NCBI GenBank assembly: GCA_029942185.1 | Contig: JAOZTK010000005.1 | Location: 2,647 to 35,425 of the forward strand | Reading direction: 5' to 3' | From: Flavobacteriaceae bacterium | GTDB taxonomy: Bacteria; Bacteroidota; Bacteroidia; Flavobacteriales; Flavobacteriaceae | Length of the DNA: 32,779 nucleotides | Shown: positions 2,538-22,475 of the stretch, one piece after another | Layout of the letters: each line of letters starts with the position of its first letter | How positions within the stretch are numbered: the stretch's first letter is position 1 | Position numbers and translations under genes: made by a program | The notes under the pieces: generated by a model | The model's input: only the letters and a program-made list of their open reading frames with translations | Database searches by the model: none | Told to the model about the DNA's origin: nothing

Positions 2538-4967
2538 CTATTTCTTCTCAGCGCTATGTTCCTCCAAATACTTTTTAGCGGCATCACCTGTTAACACTTC
2601 TACTTTAGTTTCATCATTTCCTTTAGCATCAGTAGTTGTTGTTTCAATATTAACAGTCGTCACATCTTCGATTACTTCTACGCTAACTTCTTTTCTAATC
2701 TGTTTTGTGTCAGAATCTACTGATAACTGTTCTTTAATAATTATTTCTTTAACAATTTCGTCAGTCTCTGTAGTTGTCGTTGAACTTACAGCAATACTTG
2801 GAGCAATTACTAAAGCCACAACTGACATTAATTTTATCAAAATATTTAAAGAAGGACCTGAAGTATCTTTAAACGGATCTCCTACTGTATCACCTACGAC
2901 GGCTGCTTTGTGTATGTCTGAGCCTTTTCCATATTCTTTTCCATCAACGGTTACACCATCTTCGACCATTTTCTTGGCATTATCCCACGCACCACCGGCA
3001 TTGGATTGGAATATCGCCATTAAAACACCTGTTACAGTAACTCCCGCTAGGAGTCCTCCCAGCATTTCGGGACCGCCTACTCCAAATAATTTATCTCCAA
3101 ACCCTACAATTACCGGAGTTAAAATTGCTAAAACTCCCGGTAAAACCATTTGCTTAATAGAAGCATCTGTTGAGATAGCTACACATTTTTGATACTCTGC
3201 TTTTCCATCTGCTTTATCAAAAATTGCACGATCTTCTGGAGATGCTTTGGTCATATCAGAATCATATTTTCTCATAATTACCAGCGCATTTTTTAACTCA
3301 GGAATCTCTTTAAATTGACGACGTACTTCTTGAATCATTGCCATTGCAGCTTTTCCTACTGCTTTCATAGAAAGTGCAGAAAACACAAAGGGTAACATAC
3401 CCCCGACAAACAATCCTGCCATTACATTTGATTTCGAAATATCAATCGTACTAATACCTGCTTGTAACATAAAAGCTGAAAATAATGCCAATGCCGTTAA
3501 AGCTGCCGAAGCAATGGCAAAGCCTTTACCAATCGCTGCGGTTGTATTTCCTACTGCATCTAATTTATCCGTACGTTTTCTTACTTCTTTCGGCAATTCT
3601 GCCATTTCAGCAATACCACCTGCATTATCAGATATAGGGCCATAAGCATCAACCGCTAGTTGAATACCCGTATTGGCTAACATTCCTACTGCAGCGATAG
3701 CAATACCGTACAATCCGGCAAAATGGAATGATAAAATTATTGAAGTTGCAATTAGCAAAATAGGTATAGCCGTACTCATCATACCCACACTTAAGCCTGC
3801 AATAATATTTGTAGCAGCTCCGGTTGCAGATTGATTGACAATACCCGTTACCGGTTTTGTTCCTGTTCCTGTATAATACTCTGTAATTTTACCAACTCCT
3901 AAACCTGCAACTAAACCTACTATTGTAGCGATAAAAACACCCGTTGATGAAAAATCTTTTCCATTTAAAGTCCATGTTTCCGGTAAAAACTGTTGAATTA
4001 AAAACCAGGAAGCTACAATCATAATAGCGGCAGATAAAAATTCGCCCATATTCAATGCAGTTTGTGGGTTTCCCCCTTCTTTTGTTTTTACAAAGAAAGT
4101 ACCAATAATAGAAACTATAATTCCTACAGCAGCTAATGCTAATGGTAACATTACAGGTCCTAATTGATATTCAGAAAAAGCAGGAATACTAAAATAAGCA
4201 GCACCCAAAACCATGGATGCGATAATCGAACCTACGAAGGATTCAAATAAATCGGCTCCCATACCGGCGACATCTCCTACGTTGTCTCCAACATTATCTG
4301 CAATAGTCGCAGGATTTAACGGATGATCTTCCGGAATCCCGGCTTCTACTTTTCCAACAAGGTCAGCACCCACATCCGCTGCTTTGGTATAAATGCCGCC
4401 ACCCACACGAGCAAATAGCGCTATTGAAGAAGCTCCTAATGAAAATCCTGATAATATGTTTAATACTTTTGTCAAACCATCAGCACTGCTAACATCATAC
4501 ATGTTACTGTATACGATGAATAAAACACTTAAACCAAATACTCCTAGTGACACCACTCCCAATCCCATTACAGCTCCTCCGGAAAAGGCAACCTCCAAAG
4601 CTTTGTTTAGAGAGGTTCTCGCTGCGTTTGTTGTACGCACATTTGCTTTAGTAGCAACGCGCATACCGATGAAACCTGCCAAACCTGACATCAAAGCACC
4701 AACTACAAAAGAAACTGCAACCAACCATGTTGAATTGGCTTCGCTATTCCCTTTAAAAACTAATAATACTGCAACCGCTAATACAAAGATTGCTAATACT
4801 TTGTATTCCGCTTTTAAAAAAGCCATCGCTCCTTCCGCAATATTTTTAGCGATAATTGCCATTTTTTCAGTTCCTTCTTCCTGTTTAGATACCCATGATG
4901 ATTTGATAAACATAAATACAAATCCGATTAAGGCTAATATTGGTAAAATAAATTGGACGTTTTCCAT
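2538..4967 (-). CDS. hppA: Membrane-bound K+-dependent-type pyrophosphatase (ion-translocating)
   Basis: [79 protein letters not shown]; multiple TM helices; extra hydrophilic C-terminal tail of about 75 aa. Confidence 0.97.
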
Positions 4968-12907: not shown

Positions 12908-13190
12908 AATTGTGAATTTAAATATATTATTGCTCAGTTGTAAAAAATCTTGCGTCTCACAAGTTGTAAAGGTCGTGATTTTATTGTGATAATAACACTA
13001 CAAATTTATTTTTCATTGCTGTTCTATAAATGAGCTAAGACCTTAATTCTATTTAAGACAAAACGCAACCCTTATTTTTGCCGTTCTTCTATCGTCCTAA
13101 ACTACTAAATATGTTTGTAAACCACGTATGATACTTGATTTTCAATATTCCTTGTAATTCTAACTGATTCGAAATAGATCACAAAATCCC

Positions 13191-13217
13191 ACAGAAATAT
13201 TACCCATACATTTCTGT
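13191..13217. promoter_or_regulatory. Inverted repeat upstream of the DUF47-PiT operon (candidate regulator binding site)
   Basis: ACAGAAAT - 11 nt - ATTTCTGT perfect 8-bp dyad. Confidence 0.35.
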
Positions 13218-13350
13218 CTTATAACTATACAGTGTGTCTACATACTTGTTTTACTGCAATACATTTTATTCTTTTTACACTGTTCTTTAGCTGATTATAT
13301 AATATATATACAATACTATTGCTTTTAGCCCAATAACACTATGACGTAAA

Positions 13351-13385
13351 TTGTTTTTATATGAACACTAAATATCTTACTTTTG
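13351..13385 (+). promoter_or_regulatory. Bacteroidota-type promoter candidate for the phosphate cluster
   Basis: TTG at 13351 and TACTTTTG at 13378-13385 (spacing about 24 nt), 26 nt before the DUF47 ATG. Confidence 0.45.
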
Positions 13386-13411: not shown

Positions 13412-14062
13412 ATGTTCAATGTATTAAAAACTTCCAAAACCGTCGGCCTGAGTATCGACGAGTTTTTTGATAAAATTGAGTTTGGTATTTTAAACTTTAA
13501 AAAGGGAATCAATAATTATCTCAAAGGAAATATTAATGATTTTGAGGATAACCTTAAAACCAATAATACTTTAGAACAAGAAGCTGACACCCTAAAGAGG
13601 AAAATAGAAAATGACTTCTATGTGTACTCATTGATGCCCAATTACTCTAGTGATATCATAAATCTATTAGAAAAGGCAGACGACATCATTGACATGAGCA
13701 AAGAGGTATTGAGTCAATTTGATGTTGAATCCCCAGACATCCCTGAAGATATTAAGAAGATGTATTCAAAACTTACAGCTGCGTCTGTTAAATCAGTAGA
13801 GAATTTGATACCTGCAGCTAGAATATTTTTTACTGCTCCTGAGTTGGTAAAAGAGAAAACTCAAAAAGTGCTTTTCTATCACCGGGAAGCACATACTATC
13901 TCAACCGATATAAAAAGAATTCTTTTTAAAGAGAGTGCTAGTTTGAAATTGAGCGAAAAAATTCACCTGCGCTATTTTGCATTGCATATTGAACAAATTG
14001 CCAACGCAGCTAAGGTTGTTGCACTTTTACTCGCTTCTCTAGTTTTAAAAATAAAAATGTAA
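13412..14062 (+). CDS. DUF47 family protein (PhoU-like, PiT accessory)
   Basis: 216 aa all-helical protein immediately upstream of a PiT gene; LLEKADDIIDMSKEV, FYHREAHTISTDIKRILFK. Confidence 0.82.
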   Translation: MFNVLKTSKTVGLSIDEFFDKIEFGILNFKKGINNYLKGNINDFEDNLKTNNTLEQEADTLKRKIENDFYVYSLMPNYSSDIINLLEKADDIIDMSKEVLSQFDVESPDIPEDIKKMYSKLTAASVKSVENLIPAARIFFTAPELVKEKTQKVLFYHREAHTISTDIKRILFKESASLKLSEKIHLRYFALHIEQIANAAKVVALLLASLVLKIKM

Positions 14063-14071
14063 AACCAACTG

Positions 14072-15859
14072 ATGTTTTTTTTCTTTCTAACAAGCGGACT
14101 TTTTTTAGGATGGACACTAGGAGCCAATGATGCAGCCAATGTATTTGGCTCAGCGGTAGGGTCTAAAATGATTCGTTTTAAACAAGCCGCCATAATCGCT
14201 TCCATATTTGTAATTCTGGGTGCAGTCTTACAAGGCGCAGGTGGATCACACACTTTAGGAAAATTGGGATCTATTGATGCCTTGGGTGGTGCTTTTACTG
14301 TTGCACTTGCTGCCGGACTTGTCGTTTTCTGGATGACTAAATCCAAATTACCTGTTTCTACAACACAGGCTGTAGTTGGTTCCATTATTGGGTGGAACTT
14401 CTTTACAGGTAGTCCAACCGATATTAATTCCTTAGTGAAAATTGTTACCACATGGATTGCAGGGCCTATCCTTGGGGGCATATTTGCTGTACTACTGTAT
14501 TTATTATTAGGTTTTTTTCTACGAAAAGGTAAAATTCATATATTATTACAGGATGCATACACAAAATATGCGCTGATTGTAGTAGGCGCTTTTGGCGCGT
14601 ATAGTTTGGGGGCAAATAATATTGCCAATGTCGTAGGAGTTTTTGTTCCATCTGCCCCAAATGTAATTTTAGACTTTAAATTGTTTACTTTAAACGGTAC
14701 TCAAATCCTATTTTTATTAGGTGGTATCGCCATCGCATTGGGAATCATAACCTATTCAAAACGGGTAATGATGACGGTAGGCAATTCTATAATGAAATTA
14801 TCTTCAGAAACAGCTTTAATAGTGGTGTTTTCTCATTCATTGGTGCTATTTATTTTTTCATCTCAAAGCTTGTCGAATCTATTTGTTCAAATTGGCTTAC
14901 CACCAATTCCTCTTGTACCCGTTTCAAGCTCACAAGTAATTGTCGGATCCATAATGGGTATTGCACTGCTAAAAGGTGGTAGAAATCTTGATTATGGTAT
15001 ACTTGGTAAAATTGCTATAGGTTGGGTTTCCACTCCGGTTATTGCAGGATTAATGTCATTTCTTTCTTTATTTTTTATGACGAATGTCTTTAATCTTACC
15101 GTAACTCAAAAACAAACGGATTTTATAGTTAAAGAACAAGTCAACATTCCTACTACTGTAGAAAATAACAGCAAAATTATTACAGGTGTTAGTGCACCTG
15201 AGATTCCGCAAGAGACAATCGATCTTTACCAATTTGCGTTAATTGCCAGTATTGTTATATTATTTATCCTTGCTCTTTATCTGCTGTGGCTTAACAGAAA
15301 ACTCAGAATTCACATCAAACAAAACGATTATAACGAGCAAATTTTAAAGTACAATGAACAACAAGCCAGCTTGGAATTTGATCTAAAAATAACCAACAAT
15401 CAAAATGCCAGACTAGAAGCCGCTGTTAAAACCAAAAAGAAGGCGCAAAAACGAATCGCACTAGATATTATACAAAAGAATGAAGTCTTAAATCGATTAA
15501 AAACGGAAATTGATTTGATCAAAGAAAAACCTGAAGACGAAATAAAACACAGTGATTTAAACAGTCTTAAATTTTTAATTATCGACCAATTAAACTTAAA
15601 AAAAGAACGAGAATCACTGTACAATTATGTCAAAGAGCTAAATAGAAGTTTTTATAAAAATTTGGAAAAAAGGTATCCAAATCTTACAGAAAAAGAAAAA
15701 CGACTATGTGCACTATTAAGATTATCTTTGTCTTCTAAAGAAATAGCATCCATCTTGGGCATCTCTTTTAAAAGTGTAGAGGTCAACAGATATAGGTTGC
15801 GAAAAAAAATGAATTTAAAAAAGAAAGAAAACCTTTCTAATATTATTAATACACTATAA
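14072..15859 (+). CDS. PiT-family inorganic phosphate transporter fused to TM-coiled coil-LuxR-type HTH
   Basis: GWTLGANDAANVFGSAVGSKMIRF and YSLGANNIANVVGVFVPSA (PHO4/PiT repeats); PVSTTQAVVG and PVSSSQVIVGSIMG; extra TM about residues 386-406; C-terminal YPNLTEKEKRLCALLRLSLSSKEIASILGISFKSVEVNRYRLRKKMNL (GerE/LuxR HTH, about nt 15674-15856). Confidence 0.9.
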   Translation: MFFFFLTSGLFLGWTLGANDAANVFGSAVGSKMIRFKQAAIIASIFVILGAVLQGAGGSHTLGKLGSIDALGGAFTVALAAGLVVFWMTKSKLPVSTTQAVVGSIIGWNFFTGSPTDINSLVKIVTTWIAGPILGGIFAVLLYLLLGFFLRKGKIHILLQDAYTKYALIVVGAFGAYSLGANNIANVVGVFVPSAPNVILDFKLFTLNGTQILFLLGGIAIALGIITYSKRVMMTVGNSIMKLSSETALIVVFSHSLVLFIFSSQSLSNLFVQIGLPPIPLVPVSSSQVIVGSIMGIALLKGGRNLDYGILGKIAIGWVSTPVIAGLMSFLSLFFMTNVFNLTVTQKQTDFIVKEQVNIPTTVENNSKIITGVSAPEIPQETIDLYQFALIASIVILFILALYLLWLNRKLRIHIKQNDYNEQILKYNEQQASLEFDLKITNNQNARLEAAVKTKKKAQKRIALDIIQKNEVLNRLKTEIDLIKEKPEDEIKHSDLNSLKFLIIDQLNLKKERESLYNYVKELNRSFYKNLEKRYPNLTEKEKRLCALLRLSLSSKEIASILGISFKSVEVNRYRLRKKMNLKKKENLSNIINTL

Positions 15860-15883: not shown

Positions 15884-17257
15884 ATGAAAATCAGATTTTA
15901 CACATTAGTAGCTGCAATGATGTTATTTAGCATAGGATCATCTGCACAGAAGGACAAGGAAACAGATACTTCTGTTACACTTAATCAATACGGTCAAAAA
16001 GTTGAGACTGTAGAACTGGAACCCGAAGCTAGAAACGGTATTCTATCTTTTGAATCAAAAGATAAAAAATTCAAATTTTGGTTCGACAATCGAGTCTATT
16101 TTGACGGTGGAGTGTTTTTTGACAAAGACAACTATAATCCTATAGGGAATGGTGTAACTATCAGACGTGCACGTTTTGCGGTAAAAGCCAACTTACACAA
16201 GAATTGGTATGGTGAAGTAGATTTAGATTTTGCCGGAGCCGTTACTGAATTAAAAGATGTGTACATTAAATACACTAATGATGCAAAATATTTCAATATA
16301 AAAGCGGGACAATTTAAAGAAGGTTTTTCTATGGAAACAACCACTACATCCAGGTATGTAACTTTTATGGAACGTTCATTAGCCTCAAAGTTTTCACCTT
16401 CTCGTCATTTGGGTTTTCAAGCTAATTATATGAAAGAAAGATTCTTGTTAATTGGAGGTATTCATTTCAATGCACAAGGAGAAATGGAAGAGGTAGAATT
16501 AGGACAAGACGCTAATAAAGATAATGGGATGGACGAAGGTTATTCATTAACAGGTAGAGCCGTATACCGACCAATTATCGATGCTGAAAAATTCATTCAT
16601 TTAGGTGTCGGAGCCTCTTACAGAACCCCTAAAACTCATTTAGAAGTGCCTAATTCATATAGATTTAGTACACGTTCTATTTCATCTGTTAACAGAAAAA
16701 AATATTTAGACACCGACGATATTTTAAATGTCGAAAGCAATACCATTTGGAATATAGAATTTGCAGGTGCCTATAAAAACATCATGTTCCAAACTGAATA
16801 CCTCAACACTGATGTCAAAAGAATGGAAGGTTTTTCCGATGTAAACTTAAACGGTCTTTACGTACAAGCCGGTTACTTATTAAGAGGTGGTAAATACAAT
16901 TACAACAGAAACGAAGGAGAATTTACACAAATATCCAATAAAAGTGATAAAGGAGAGTTAGAAATAGCTTTTAGATATGATTTCATAGATCTAAATGATG
17001 AAAAAGCAGGTATCTATGGCGGATCTGCCGATGCTTATACACTTGGATTGAACTACTATTTTAATACAAATGTAAAAATGATGCTTAACTATTCCTATAT
17101 CAACCACGACAGATATGCTAATGGAAAAAGCAAATTATTTGTAGGGCATGACAGCAATGGTGAGTTAACCAAAGACTGGGCAGAAGTTGTGGAGCCATCC
17201 GGTGAAGCAGGTGATGACTATGGTCAATTACAAATGAGAATTGAAATAGACTTTTAA
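15884..17257 (+). CDS. Porin, phosphate-selective OprO/OprP-like family
   Basis: Signal peptide; FKFWFDNRVYFDGGVFFDKDN...GVTIRRARFAVKANLHKNWYGEVDLDFA...VYIKY...FNIKAGQFKEGFSME, typical of OprO/P; beta-strand pattern and terminal aromatic residue. Confidence 0.85.
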   Translation: MKIRFYTLVAAMMLFSIGSSAQKDKETDTSVTLNQYGQKVETVELEPEARNGILSFESKDKKFKFWFDNRVYFDGGVFFDKDNYNPIGNGVTIRRARFAVKANLHKNWYGEVDLDFAGAVTELKDVYIKYTNDAKYFNIKAGQFKEGFSMETTTTSRYVTFMERSLASKFSPSRHLGFQANYMKERFLLIGGIHFNAQGEMEEVELGQDANKDNGMDEGYSLTGRAVYRPIIDAEKFIHLGVGASYRTPKTHLEVPNSYRFSTRSISSVNRKKYLDTDDILNVESNTIWNIEFAGAYKNIMFQTEYLNTDVKRMEGFSDVNLNGLYVQAGYLLRGGKYNYNRNEGEFTQISNKSDKGELEIAFRYDFIDLNDEKAGIYGGSADAYTLGLNYYFNTNVKMMLNYSYINHDRYANGKSKLFVGHDSNGELTKDWAEVVEPSGEAGDDYGQLQMRIEIDF

Positions 17258-17288: not shown

Positions 17289-18788
17289 ATGAAAAATTAT
17301 AAATATTTAGTATTCGGTTTTATAATCGCCTTGTTTAGTGCGGTTGGCTGTGTAACAGATGACTTATATACTGAAGAAGGCCCGGATGTAGGAACTTCTA
17401 CTGTAAAATTAAATGAAATTATGTCTACCGGTTCCCCGGACTGGTTAGAACTTTACAACGGAGGAAACGAAGATGTGGATTTAGCAGGTTTTAAATTAAC
17501 CGATAGCAGCCAAGAATGGACAATAGATGCCCTTACAATTGCTGCAGGTGGTTATGTAACCTTTGATTGTGATGATTCAAATATTCCTAATGTCTCTACC
17601 AACTTTAAAATTTCATCCGGTGGAGAGAAAATCTCTCTTTACAATGCAGCAGGTGAATTAATTGATGAGATAACAACTCCTGATATGTCAAGTCAAACCG
17701 GTTTGACGTATGGTAGAGAGAACGACGGGGCTGACAACTGGCTTGTAATGGGAGGTTCAAAAGGAACTGCTAACAGCAGTAACAATGACGCACCACTTAT
17801 CACAGCTGATGACTTGACTGAATTTGATTCTATTTATGAAATCGCTGTTTCTGATGCTGATGGTTTAAGCGCTGTAAACTTAGTTCTAATAACAGAAGAC
17901 AGCGTTCAATCATTAGAAATGGTGCTAGTTGATGATGATTATAAAATTTCAGTTCCGAATTTTCCATTAGGTACTCAAGTTCACTATTATGTTAAAGCTA
18001 CAGACAATACAGGAATGACATCTTTCTTCCCGGAAACTGCTCCTGAGGAAACAAACAGTTATTACGTCACAAATGGAAATGCAATCTTTTTAGCAGTAAA
18101 CTACCAAGGTGCTGATGAAGGAAATCTTGGAGATGTAACCTTTACTGTTGAAGCTTATGACAATGTAGCGGTAACTGAAGTGAAATTGTATTATGTTTTA
18201 CCGGGTTTCACTATTGATGATAAAATTAGTGTTCTTTTAGATCTTGCTGATGGACAATGGACAGGTATTATCCCTGCACAACCTGAAGAGAGTATCGTTA
18301 AATACTATTTAAGAGCTAAAAATGAAGCTGGTAACAAAACTTACTATCCAATGGAAGATGCTGACTTTGATCACGATATCTTAGACACATGGCCTACTTA
18401 TATGGCAGGTGAAGCAGTTGTAATCAATGGTTTCTCTTTATTTACCAATTCTAACCCCGTTGGAGGCAGTGATATAGATATTAGTGTACATATCACTTAT
18501 GATACCGGTGATGTTAGTGAAGTAAAATACTATTATGTAGTAAACTATGATCCTGCAACCTATGACGGTAGCCAAAGAGTTACTTTAGAATGGGACGGTA
18601 GTCTACCTACATCTAATGATTTCTATACCTTCTCAATTCCTACTGCTGAATTCACATCAGGAGATGACATTATCTGGTATATGAGAGCAAAAGATGGAGA
18701 TGGTGACAAGCATTATTTCACAAGAGGTCAAGGTGAAGATTTTGATAAAGACGTTTTGGAAGACTGGGATAAAATGATTATCCAATAA
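17289..18788 (+). CDS. Lamin-tail-domain (LTD) lipoprotein with three Ig/Fn3-like repeats
   Basis: Lipobox-like ALFSAVGC; STVKLNEIMSTGSPDWLELYNGGNEDVDLAGFKLTDSSQEWTI...GGYVTFDCDD (LTD signature); repeats with VHYYVKATDNTGM / VKYYLRAKNEAGN / IIWYMRAKDGDGD. Confidence 0.85.
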   Translation: MKNYKYLVFGFIIALFSAVGCVTDDLYTEEGPDVGTSTVKLNEIMSTGSPDWLELYNGGNEDVDLAGFKLTDSSQEWTIDALTIAAGGYVTFDCDDSNIPNVSTNFKISSGGEKISLYNAAGELIDEITTPDMSSQTGLTYGRENDGADNWLVMGGSKGTANSSNNDAPLITADDLTEFDSIYEIAVSDADGLSAVNLVLITEDSVQSLEMVLVDDDYKISVPNFPLGTQVHYYVKATDNTGMTSFFPETAPEETNSYYVTNGNAIFLAVNYQGADEGNLGDVTFTVEAYDNVAVTEVKLYYVLPGFTIDDKISVLLDLADGQWTGIIPAQPEESIVKYYLRAKNEAGNKTYYPMEDADFDHDILDTWPTYMAGEAVVINGFSLFTNSNPVGGSDIDISVHITYDTGDVSEVKYYYVVNYDPATYDGSQRVTLEWDGSLPTSNDFYTFSIPTAEFTSGDDIIWYMRAKDGDGDKHYFTRGQGEDFDKDVLEDWDKMIIQ

Positions 18789-18836: not shown

Positions 18837-19568
18837 TTGAAGAAGCTTTTTCCTATTCTTTTTATAGTAGTCCTACTATTCGTATCTTGTAAAAAAGAAA
18901 CACTAATTACCAGTCAGCTTGAACTGTTAACTACTTTTTCGATTGATGTTCCTGAACCTTCGGGTCTCGCCATTAATAGCTCCGGGACTATTTTATATAC
19001 GGTTAGTGATCACACCAATAAAGTATATAAATTAGCTACATCCGGTGTTGTTTTACAAATATTTGATTTTACGGGCAATGATTTAGAAGGCGTCTGTAAT
19101 TACACCAATGGGAAGCTCCTATTGGCAGAGGAAAGGACAAAAAATATTATTGAATTAACTATGTTAACCGGAGCCTACGTAACACATCAGATGGATTATG
19201 AGAACGATGAACCTAACGCCGGAATTGAAGGAATTACCTATAATGCTGACACTCATAATATTTATTTTTTAAATGAAAAAAATCCTGATAAATTATTCAA
19301 ATTGAATACAAGTTTCAATATTATATCAAGCTATGATCTGAATTTTGCGAATGATTATTCCGGTATTTTTTATGATTCTACGGATACTGTTTTATGGATT
19401 GTAAGCGATGAATCTCAAACTATCAATAAATGCACATTAGAAGGAGAACTCATTGAATCATTTGTCATCAACGTACAAAAACCGGAAGGAATTGCTATTT
19501 CAAATGAAAAGATATATATTGTCAGCGATTCACAAGAAAGAATTTACACATTTCAAAAACCCAATTAA
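18837..19568 (+). CDS. SdiA-regulated / YjiK-like beta-propeller lipoprotein
   Basis: MKKLFPILFIVVLLFVSC lipobox; DVPEPSGLAINSSGTILYTVSDHTNKVYKL, FTGNDLEGVCNY, NAGIEGITYN, PEGIAISNEKIYIVSDSQERIYTF. TTG start. Confidence 0.8.
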   Translation: MKKLFPILFIVVLLFVSCKKETLITSQLELLTTFSIDVPEPSGLAINSSGTILYTVSDHTNKVYKLATSGVVLQIFDFTGNDLEGVCNYTNGKLLLAEERTKNIIELTMLTGAYVTHQMDYENDEPNAGIEGITYNADTHNIYFLNEKNPDKLFKLNTSFNIISSYDLNFANDYSGIFYDSTDTVLWIVSDESQTINKCTLEGELIESFVINVQKPEGIAISNEKIYIVSDSQERIYTFQKPN

Positions 19569-19617
19569 CAACCCATAGCACTTTAACAAAGTGTACTATC
19601 TTAAAATAAAAACTAAA

Positions 19618-20259
19618 ATGTCAACAACAAACATGAAAATCGGAGAAATATCAAAACCCCGTTTTGAATTCAGAACATTCGGACAAAATTTTGAAGAAGC
19701 CGCCAAATTAATGGCAAGATTATCTGTTCCTATTCCCAAAAAAGTTTGGGAGAGAAATTCAGATGAAATATACATCTTATCCAAAACCAACGACATCAAT
19801 AATACAAAAATTAGAGATGGAAAAATGGATATTAAAACCTTTGTACAAACGGTAGATGGTTTAGAACAATGGAATCCTTTGATGAAAGGTGAATTCCCAA
19901 TAGCAAAAGAAGTCTTAGAAAATGATGTATTTCCAGCTTTTAAAGTTGAAATGCCTGCTTTAACACAAGATACCTATACTATTGAGGAATTTCTTGCAAT
20001 GATAGAAGGACATAAAGATTTACAAGGCGTTAAAGTACACAAACATCGTTTTGGATATATGGTCAACGATACGCTTTGCGAAGTAGCAGAAGTATTGATC
20101 AATGGTGCAAAAGTTTGTACCATCAATTCAGAATCTACGGAACTAGAAGATATCAAAAAGACCTTAAACGACATTCAATTAACAGGAACTGAAAACATCA
20201 ACTATCTACAAGCTATTAAGCGAGTAATCGGGTGGATTAATAAACCATTAGCTAATTAG
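19618..20259 (+). CDS. Divergent CYTH-like (triphosphate tunnel fold) protein
   Basis: PRFEFRTFG...DEIYILSKTNDINNTKIRDGKMDIKTFV resembles the CYTH N-terminal strands; CEVAEVLINGAKVCTINSES resembles the C-terminal half. ATG at 19618 preferred over GTG at 19591. Confidence 0.55.
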   Translation: MSTTNMKIGEISKPRFEFRTFGQNFEEAAKLMARLSVPIPKKVWERNSDEIYILSKTNDINNTKIRDGKMDIKTFVQTVDGLEQWNPLMKGEFPIAKEVLENDVFPAFKVEMPALTQDTYTIEEFLAMIEGHKDLQGVKVHKHRFGYMVNDTLCEVAEVLINGAKVCTINSESTELEDIKKTLNDIQLTGTENINYLQAIKRVIGWINKPLAN

Positions 20260-20288: not shown

Positions 20289-20765
20289 ATGGCAAATCAA
20301 GAAATAGAACGGAAATTCCTTGTCAAAGGAGATTATAAAAAATTCGTTTCCAAAGAAACAAAAATTGTACAAGGCTTTCTTTCAACTGTTCCCGAAAGAA
20401 CGGTTAGAATTCGTATCAAAGGAGATAAGGGCTTCTTAACTGTTAAAGGTATCGGTAATGAAAGTGGTGCTTCGAGATATGAATTCGAAAAAGAAATCAG
20501 TGTAGAAGACGCTAAAGATTTAATGGCTATCTGCGAACCCGGAGTTATCGATAAAACACGTTATATTGTACCCGCAAAAAAAGGATTGTTTTTTGAAGTA
20601 GATGAGTTTTACGGTAAGAATGACGGATTAACAGTTGCTGAAATCGAATTACCAACAGAAGAAACTACTTTTGAAAAACCGGTGTGGTTAGGGAAAGAAG
20701 TTACGGGTGATGTCCGTTACTTTAACTCCATGCTGATGAAAAATCCATATAAAGATTGGGAATAA
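20289..20765 (+). CDS. CYTH domain protein (triphosphate tunnel metalloenzyme family)
   Basis: NQEIERKFLVKG (ExExK), VRIRIKGDKGFLTVKG, FEKEIS, DKTRYIVP, FFEVDEFYGKNDGLTVAEIELPTE. Confidence 0.93.
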   Translation: MANQEIERKFLVKGDYKKFVSKETKIVQGFLSTVPERTVRIRIKGDKGFLTVKGIGNESGASRYEFEKEISVEDAKDLMAICEPGVIDKTRYIVPAKKGLFFEVDEFYGKNDGLTVAEIELPTEETTFEKPVWLGKEVTGDVRYFNSMLMKNPYKDWE

Positions 20766-20879: not shown

Positions 20880-22475
20880 ATGAGTGCAATTATACAAAAC
20901 GGTTTTGATGTATTAGACATGAAAAACTATCGAATGGAGAAACTCCCTAAGCGGGATAAATCTAAATTTGAAAAGTTTTTAATGCTAATTGGAGCTCCTT
21001 TAGCAGTTATTTTTTTTGTGTTAATTTTATTTGTTTTTAAGATTCCTTTTTTGGAAAATATGGACACTTCTTCTTTAAGTGCTAATGCCAAAATGAATTT
21101 TGAAAACATAGGTTTGCGTGACTTTATTTTTTCCAACAAAGCCATGTTGGCTATTTTTGTCTCCTCCTTAATCTTATGGATAACAGAGGCTATTCCTAAC
21201 TACTTAACATCCCTAATTTTAATCATAGCATTAGTACTCACAAGTGTACTTCCTGAGGAGGTAGCTTATGCGCAATTAGGACATAAAGTAATGTGGTTAA
21301 ACATCATGTCGTTTGTCTTGGCGAGTATGTTAGTTGCTACTGGAGTTGCCAAAAGGTTTGCCCTTTGGTTTATCATTAAATTCGGGAAAAGTGCTTCATC
21401 TGTTATTTTGAGTTTCTTAGTAATCAACCTAGTATTATCGCTCTTTATATCAGCTACCACAGCCAAAGCAGCAATCTTATTGCCTGTTTTTATGGTCGTT
21501 GCAGCCATATATGGAGCCTCAAATGGTAAAAAAAACAACGTAGGACGGAATGTACTCTTACAAAACCTGTTTCAGAATAATATGGGAGCCAGTTCTTTTT
21601 TAACTGGATCCGGAGCCAACTTATTAGCAGCTTCCTTAATTGCCGGTGCGCTGGGTAGCGATATCTTTTTTTCACAATGGATGATTGCATCTTTTCCTGT
21701 AGCTATGGGTTTAATGCTTATTGCCTGGATTATCGGAATTAAAATAATATTCCCTATCAAAAAAGAGGATAGAAAGCCGAGTATTCCCGGTGGAATGGAT
21801 AGTCTTAAAAAAGATTTAGCAGCTTTAGGAAAAATGTCTTTTAACGAGATAAAATCCATCATAATTTTTGTAAGCATCTTACTTTTATGGGTTACGGATA
21901 AATGGCATGGTGTCAGCCCAACAGCAGTTGCCTTTGTAGGTGCAATTGTCGCCTTACTTCCCAAGGTTGGAATCGTAAAATGGAACGATGTGGACATCCC
22001 TTGGCATTTACTTTTGTTCTCCGCAGGTGCTTATACTTTAGGAGCCGGATTTAAAGTTACGGATTTACCTTCTATTTCTGTAAATGCCGCTTTCGATGCT
22101 ATGGGATTTGGCGATAACACACCTTTTTGGATGTTGTATGCAGTACTTACTTTTTCCATGGTATTTAGCGCTTTATTTATGCAGTCTAAAACCATGCGAG
22201 CGATGATTTTTATCCCAATTGCTATTGGGGTTGCCCTTCGTTTTGATTATCCCATCATGAGTTTAGCATTTCCTGTCGCACTTCTTATTGAGCACGTGTA
22301 TACGCTACCTTTTAACAGCAAACCGGCACTACTACTTTACTCTACGGATCAGTATAGTATGAGTGATGGCTTTAAATTTGGAATTACCATGCAAATAATC
22401 GCTTGGTTCACTTCTATTCTTATGGCTATGACCTATTTTAAATGGTTGGGGATTACACCAGACGGCTTGTTTTAG
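20880..22475 (+). CDS. SLC13/DASS-family anion:sodium symporter
   Basis: 12-ish TM protein; LILWITEAIPNYLTSLI, LFISATTAKAAILLPVFM, DIPWHLLLFSAGAYTLGAG, LPFNSKPALLLY. Confidence 0.82.
   Translation: MSAIIQNGFDVLDMKNYRMEKLPKRDKSKFEKFLMLIGAPLAVIFFVLILFVFKIPFLENMDTSSLSANAKMNFENIGLRDFIFSNKAMLAIFVSSLILWITEAIPNYLTSLILIIALVLTSVLPEEVAYAQLGHKVMWLNIMSFVLASMLVATGVAKRFALWFIIKFGKSASSVILSFLVINLVLSLFISATTAKAAILLPVFMVVAAIYGASNGKKNNVGRNVLLQNLFQNNMGASSFLTGSGANLLAASLIAGALGSDIFFSQWMIASFPVAMGLMLIAWIIGIKIIFPIKKEDRKPSIPGGMDSLKKDLAALGKMSFNEIKSIIIFVSILLLWVTDKWHGVSPTAVAFVGAIVALLPKVGIVKWNDVDIPWHLLLFSAGAYTLGAGFKVTDLPSISVNAAFDAMGFGDNTPFWMLYAVLTFSMVFSALFMQSKTMRAMIFIPIAIGVALRFDYPIMSLAFPVALLIEHVYTLPFNSKPALLLYSTDQYSMSDGFKFGITMQIIAWFTSILMAMTYFKWLGITPDGLF

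Follow-up and report, generated by a model that had tools for sequence, protein, structure and literature searches.

Transceptors are usually inferred from mutants. Among described proteins, CbrA and other SLC5/STAC histidine kinases join a transporter to a signalling output, and transport-coupled signalling has been proposed for them (PMC13022988, PMC9100948). In Eggerthella and Gordonibacter, polytopic LuxR-type regulators with 10-12 TM helices control neighbouring genes in a substrate-specific manner (PMC11585353), and in S. aureus, PhoU-like PitR proteins and their cognate Pit transporters work together (PMC13170248). A PiT permease fused to a LuxR-type DNA-binding domain was not found described in the open-access literature searched. 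Here we analyse such a fusion, encoded within a stretch of 32,779 nucleotides (the window, i.e. the whole stretch of DNA analysed), whose carrier is a marine-type bacterium. With a probability of roughly 0.6, we read the protein as a membrane-bound one-component regulator, or transceptor, which would control its own phosphate-acquisition operon through an array of promoter repeats.

The fusion is a single open frame of 595 aa, running from ATG to stop with no interruption, and its architecture in one polypeptide is certain. An earlier note, made from the letters of the window, had read PiT signatures, an extra TM helix, a coiled coil and an HTH in this frame (14072-15859), and had asked for a domain search; the frame is indeed intact, and both families were recovered above their Pfam cut-offs, PF01384 PHO4 at residues 17-329 (199.3 bits, cut-off 33.7) and PF00196 GerE at residues 537-587 (30.7 bits, cut-off 23.5), with the recognition helix conserved. 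The top fold match of an AlphaFold2 model built from 40 sequences (mean pLDDT 75) was the solved structure of a sodium-dependent phosphate transporter, 6L85 (E 9e-14, TMt 0.68). In that model the long linker is predicted to be disordered at about residues 354-387 (pLDDT <50), residues 385-485 form one long helix holding both the extra membrane helix and the coiled coil, the latter at moderate confidence (pLDDT about 54-77), and the HTH is folded near residues 540-579.

Table 1. Coordinates of the fusion, its neighbours and its promoter elements in the window.
Feature	Position	Strand	Remark
Exact CACTACA, outside the phased positions, may be chance	12996..13002	+	-416
Candidate operator copy CCATACA (CACTACA variant)	13204..13210	+	-208 from PhoU_div start
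Candidate operator copy CTATACA	13225..13231	+	-187; two helical turns after the 13204 copy
Degenerate Crp/Fnr-like inverted repeat TGACGTAAATTG	13342..13353	+	
Bacteroidota -7 promoter box TACTTTTG (TAnnTTTG)	13378..13385	+	
PhoU_div/DUF47 (PitR-like), first operon gene	13412..14062	+	9 bp before the fusion
PiT-LuxR fusion gene	14072..15859	+	PHO4 domain aa 1-345, linker 346-384, TM 385-407, coiled coil 408-530, HTH 535-590
PiT/PHO4 permease half (aa 1-345)	14072..15106	+	GANDAAN 17-23, PVSTTQ 94-99, GANNIAN 180-186, PVSSSQ 283-288
Extra TM helix, coiled coil and LuxR HTH (aa 385-595)	15224..15856	+	
Porin_O_P (phosphate-selective porin family)	15884..17257	+	
Lamin-tail-domain (LTD) lipoprotein-like protein, conserved in the cluster	17289..18788	+	
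SdiA-regulated / phytase-like beta-propeller	18837..19568	+	
orf19591, predicted triphosphate-tunnel (CYTH-like) fold	19591..20259	+	Top PDB match ygiF with tripolyphosphate
CYTH triphosphatase-family protein	20289..20765	+	
DASS-family sodium-coupled anion symporter, with which the conserved cluster ends	20880..22475	+	

The fusion is the second gene of a cluster with short gaps, in the order PhoU_div, PiT-LuxR, Porin_O_P, LTD, SdiA-like, orf19591, CYTH and DASS. This eight-gene order was kept in the loci carrying the fusion (fused loci) wherever the contig reached far enough; in one of them (L043), the LTD gene was not detected. orf19591 has no Pfam match; the folds that its model (pLDDT 89) matched were those of triphosphate-tunnel enzymes. 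In the wider set, a PhoU_div relative was present in 73 of 80 loci, nearly always immediately upstream. Apart from the fusion, no product of the conserved cluster was recognised as a DNA-binding protein. A membrane H+-pyrophosphatase gene lies upstream in the window (2538-4967, minus strand). Tripartite tricarboxylate transporter genes (TctC/TctB, TctA) stand beside the unfused PiT loci L108, L110 and L092, where the fused loci have DASS.

In the mechanism that we propose, the permease half would import an oxyanion, in all likelihood inorganic phosphate, and its conformation would probably be read jointly with PhoU_div, the PitR-like product of the preceding gene. The signal would be relayed via the extra helix and the coiled coil to the cytoplasmic LuxR HTH, which would bind helically phased repeats of the CACTACA type, some 100-240 bp ahead of the first gene, and thereby tune, probably activate, its own eight-gene operon. 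Activation is suggested by the upstream position of the array.

Within the 260 bp that precede the operon in 16 fused loci (4.16 kb in total), the heptamer CACTACA occurs in 20 exact copies, all on one strand, with no copy on the opposite strand of the same 4.16 kb and a background of 0.05 per kb and strand elsewhere in the fused loci. In 500 dinucleotide shuffles, 7-mers of comparable G+C content reached at most 5 copies, and the upstream regions tested were otherwise at shuffled-level identity (0.68 vs 0.66). A caveat is that the loci are related and that the DNA around the array is AT-rich. A free EM motif search on the upstream regions drifted to A-rich sequence, and the array is defined here by k-mer counts and shuffles. 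Its copies are direct repeats located near -240, -187, -155 and -100 from the first gene, and their spacings cluster at 21, 32, 53 and 86 bp, close to 2, 3, 5 and 8 helical turns (multiples of 10.7 bp). As a further caveat, the subclade of the window uses a variant, C[CT]ATAC, present 8 times in 1.04 kb compared to 0.39 per kb elsewhere, and the window itself has two clear copies of it (Table 1). Downstream of the array, TGATNNNNATCA palindromes, which we take to be Crp/Fnr-like, were found 11 times in the 16 fused loci, and in most of these loci the distance from the palindrome to the -7 box is nearly fixed at about 35 bp. One genome, a Lutibacter bin (G437), has two copies of the array and operon start (L046 and L116).

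The chief rival to autoregulation is that the array serves another regulator, e.g. an OmpR/PhoB-type response regulator, with the fused HTH acting elsewhere or weakly here, which we consider rather unlikely. A LuxR dimer would be expected on inverted half-sites, and none are obvious in the array. By inspection, a related heptamer is also often found 11 bp upstream of the copy at -187 (CCAAACA TAAC CACTACA), a tandem layout of the OmpR type, but this tandem form is missing at most other copies, and none of the genes in the conserved cluster was recognised as a response regulator. In contrast to a global Pho regulon, the array was limited to the fusion operon in each fused genome searched with exact patterns, other hits being comparable to the reversed control. 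Nor does it extend to unfused relatives, in which CACTAC[AT] occurred once across 15.7 kb of sequence preceding PhoU_div, although these array-less loci belong to other lineages, so that the association between array and fusion is partly phylogenetic. The link between HTH and array is correlational, drawn from a single recognised DNA-binding protein in the cluster and from an array that is locus-specific and follows the fusion. Dedicated autoregulation by the fusion is likely, and the promoter array lends independent support to the transceptor idea.

For the tail of the fusion, many matches were found to the output half of LuxR regulators from Flavobacteriales, mostly at about 30-40% identity over the tail. 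Among 75 single-TM LuxR regulators sampled, 59 contained TPR_12 and 11 contained Y_Y_Y, in agreement with the earlier note, which had recognised the tail as the output half of common Bacteroidota membrane regulators. None of the 75 had more than 3 TM-like segments, and a permease as input half is therefore exceptional in this sample. The note had further proposed that a periplasmic sensor was replaced by the permease; the exceptional input stands, and replacement becomes one history among others, since unfused Bacteroidales PiT proteins already have an added helix. These unfused proteins (L048-L054, L056-L059, L062-L064 and others) end in a single additional helix followed by a short basic tail. 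They may represent forerunners of the fusion, in which case the HTH would have joined an existing helix. Alternatively, the extra helix may have arrived together with the HTH. Human PiT C-termini have been placed outside the cell by tags (PMC3126765). In the fused proteins, K+R counts were 1.9-4.4 in predicted inside loops, 0.2-0.9 in outside loops, and 3.4 after the extra helix. An external PiT C-terminus, one further helix and this positive-inside pattern together would place the HTH in the cytoplasm.

Across 14 fused proteins, identity averaged 78% in the PiT half, 24% in the linker, 40% in the extra helix, 52% in the coiled coil and 74% in the HTH, indicating that both ends of the fusion are under constraint. 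The long, variable and predictedly disordered linker would be a poor relay of conformational change, which could mean that the permease is a mere membrane anchor or a plain transporter, and that the HTH is driven by PitR, membrane state or similar rather than by occupancy. We hold this to be unlikely, because conservation extends to the coiled coil and the extra helix, and because without coupling there would be little reason for the permease to have stayed fused through the depth of the clade. From the sequence data, transceptor function of the fusion is plausible.

The substrate is a separate question. Residues critical in human PiT2 are D28, E55, S113, H502, D506, E575 and S593 (PMC3126765). 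The PiT proteins of the subfamily (82 in the tree) are found in several phyla. Of the two GANDVANA signatures of PiT permeases, each with an Asp, they keep the Asp in the first and read GANN in the second, and both Glu positions critical in PiT2 are hydrophobic in them. As judged through the 6L85 alignment and what we take to be the PiT2 positions, rather than by direct alignment, the subfamily retains the equivalents of D28, S113 and S593 (D20, S96 and S285), and in the window protein those of E55, H502, D506 and E575 (4 of 7) are replaced by V47, L179, N183 and V252. Across the 82 proteins, N at the D506 place and V at the E575 place are invariant, and a hydrophobic residue always occupies the E55 place. 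The replacements are thus a subfamily trait, common to fused and unfused members, rather than decay after the fusion event, and they bear on phosphate function while leaving PiT homology standing. With 4 of the 7 residues replaced, transport is uncertain and the assignment of phosphate rests on gene context, namely PhoU_div, the porin, two triphosphate-tunnel folds and an exopolyphosphatase-family gene that adjoins an unfused relative in Cloacimonadota. This context makes inorganic phosphate the most likely substrate. The orf19591-type family (L094, L103, L110, L092) also adjoins PiT in Spirochaetota and Cloacimonadota.

The permease could instead handle another oxyanion, e.g. sulfate, to which the operon would then answer. 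The nearest NCBIfam model is the sulfate permease CysP, and the cluster includes a DASS symporter. In CysP, the first-motif Asp is changed to Gly and the second to Asn (PMC5840216). The Asn is shared by 82 of 82 subfamily members, but the first-motif Asp, which is Gly in B. subtilis CysP, is likewise kept in 82 of 82, so that the second replacement alone is present, and the match to the CysP model (NF053884) scored 75.5 bits, far under the cut-off of 400. Membership in CysP was rejected on these grounds. As phosphate and polyphosphate proteins are neighbours in several phyla, we regard another oxyanion as an improbable substrate.

A scan of species genomes found full-length relatives of the fusion in Flavobacteriaceae bins (Lutibacter, Maribacter and others), plus single bins labelled Saprospiraceae and Bacteroidales. 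The layout was identical at full length in 13 further loci, with additional ones broken off at contig ends, and is thus neither chance nor an assembly error. In the PiT tree, the 16 fused loci formed one clade (100/99; 200 of 200 bootstrap trees). The 12 fused tails also formed one clade (100/99) when analysed together with 75 further LuxR tails, a sample that omits L137, L138, L139, L141 and L144, whose full frame was not recovered; this tree singled out no donor of the tail. Inner branching was alike in the trees of the PiT and HTH halves, and the fusion arose once. All named carriers are metagenome bins, yet a false joining of two genes during assembly or binning is ruled out for practical purposes, since the same junction recurs in loci of many separate bins, and both halves form matching clades with similar branching.

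The PiT subfamily was present in 3 of 398 genomes evenly sampled from the order and in 13 of 396 evenly sampled from the phylum; in these samples, the copy of the window was the only frame long enough for an HTH fusion. A number of unfused relatives (L055, L060, L066, L072, L075, L076, L078, L097-L099, L101, L105-L108, L111) share a conserved domain of some 140 aa at the C-terminus with no further helix, which would be periplasmic by PiT topology; in the one scanned (L101), PHO4 was the only Pfam match. Genome G000 has a second PiT gene (C80:1017-2420), within a 764-aa open frame.

PstA was not detected in the genomes of the window's genus (G000-G006), with 14 of 14 control genomes positive. 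Pst loss as a rule for fused genomes was rejected, as PstA was above the cut-off in G433, G435 and G441, with a match below the cut-off in G437. In its strongest form, the transceptor reading would make this protein the first bacterial phosphate permease acting as a transcription factor, whose occupancy, read together with PitR, sets the promoter of its own operon via the operator array, as a substitute for the Pst-PhoU-PhoR-PhoB chain in a genus where PstA was not detected. We put this tentatively, as slightly short of an even chance. If true, it would be a route of phosphate control without a two-component system. Sensor, transporter and DNA-binding output would be combined in one polypeptide with a defined candidate operator, and direct control of transcription by the conformational cycle of a secondary transporter would become testable with one protein and one promoter.

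Compared to described systems, the fusion resembles CbrA and the SLC5/STAC kinases in having a solute transporter and a signalling output in one polypeptide. It differs in its fold, which is PiT and not SLC5 (SLC5, STAC and kinase domains gave no Pfam match in the fusion), and its output would itself contact DNA instead of acting through a response regulator. The regulators of Eggerthella and Gordonibacter are likewise many-helix membrane proteins with a LuxR HTH, whereas the fusion belongs to another phylum, has other target genes, and brings a recognisable PiT half, a phosphate-type operon and an added helix and coiled coil. With the single-TM LuxR regulators of Bacteroidota it shares a homologous TM, coiled coil and HTH, but its input is a permease, where theirs is periplasmic TPR or Reg_prop/Y_Y_Y. 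A PhoU-like accessory gene adjoins a Pit permease in the PitR-PitA phosphate systems of S. aureus and other bacteria as well (PMC13170248); there the output is PhoR, whereas here the permease has an HTH of its own. TmPiT (PDB 6L85) has the fold of the permease half, lacks the regulatory tail, and has acidic residues where the fusion is hydrophobic and an Asp in the second motif. Transporter-kinase and polytopic LuxR proteins are already known; the joining of a PiT permease to a LuxR HTH had no described counterpart in the open-access literature searched, and the candidate operator array is new here.
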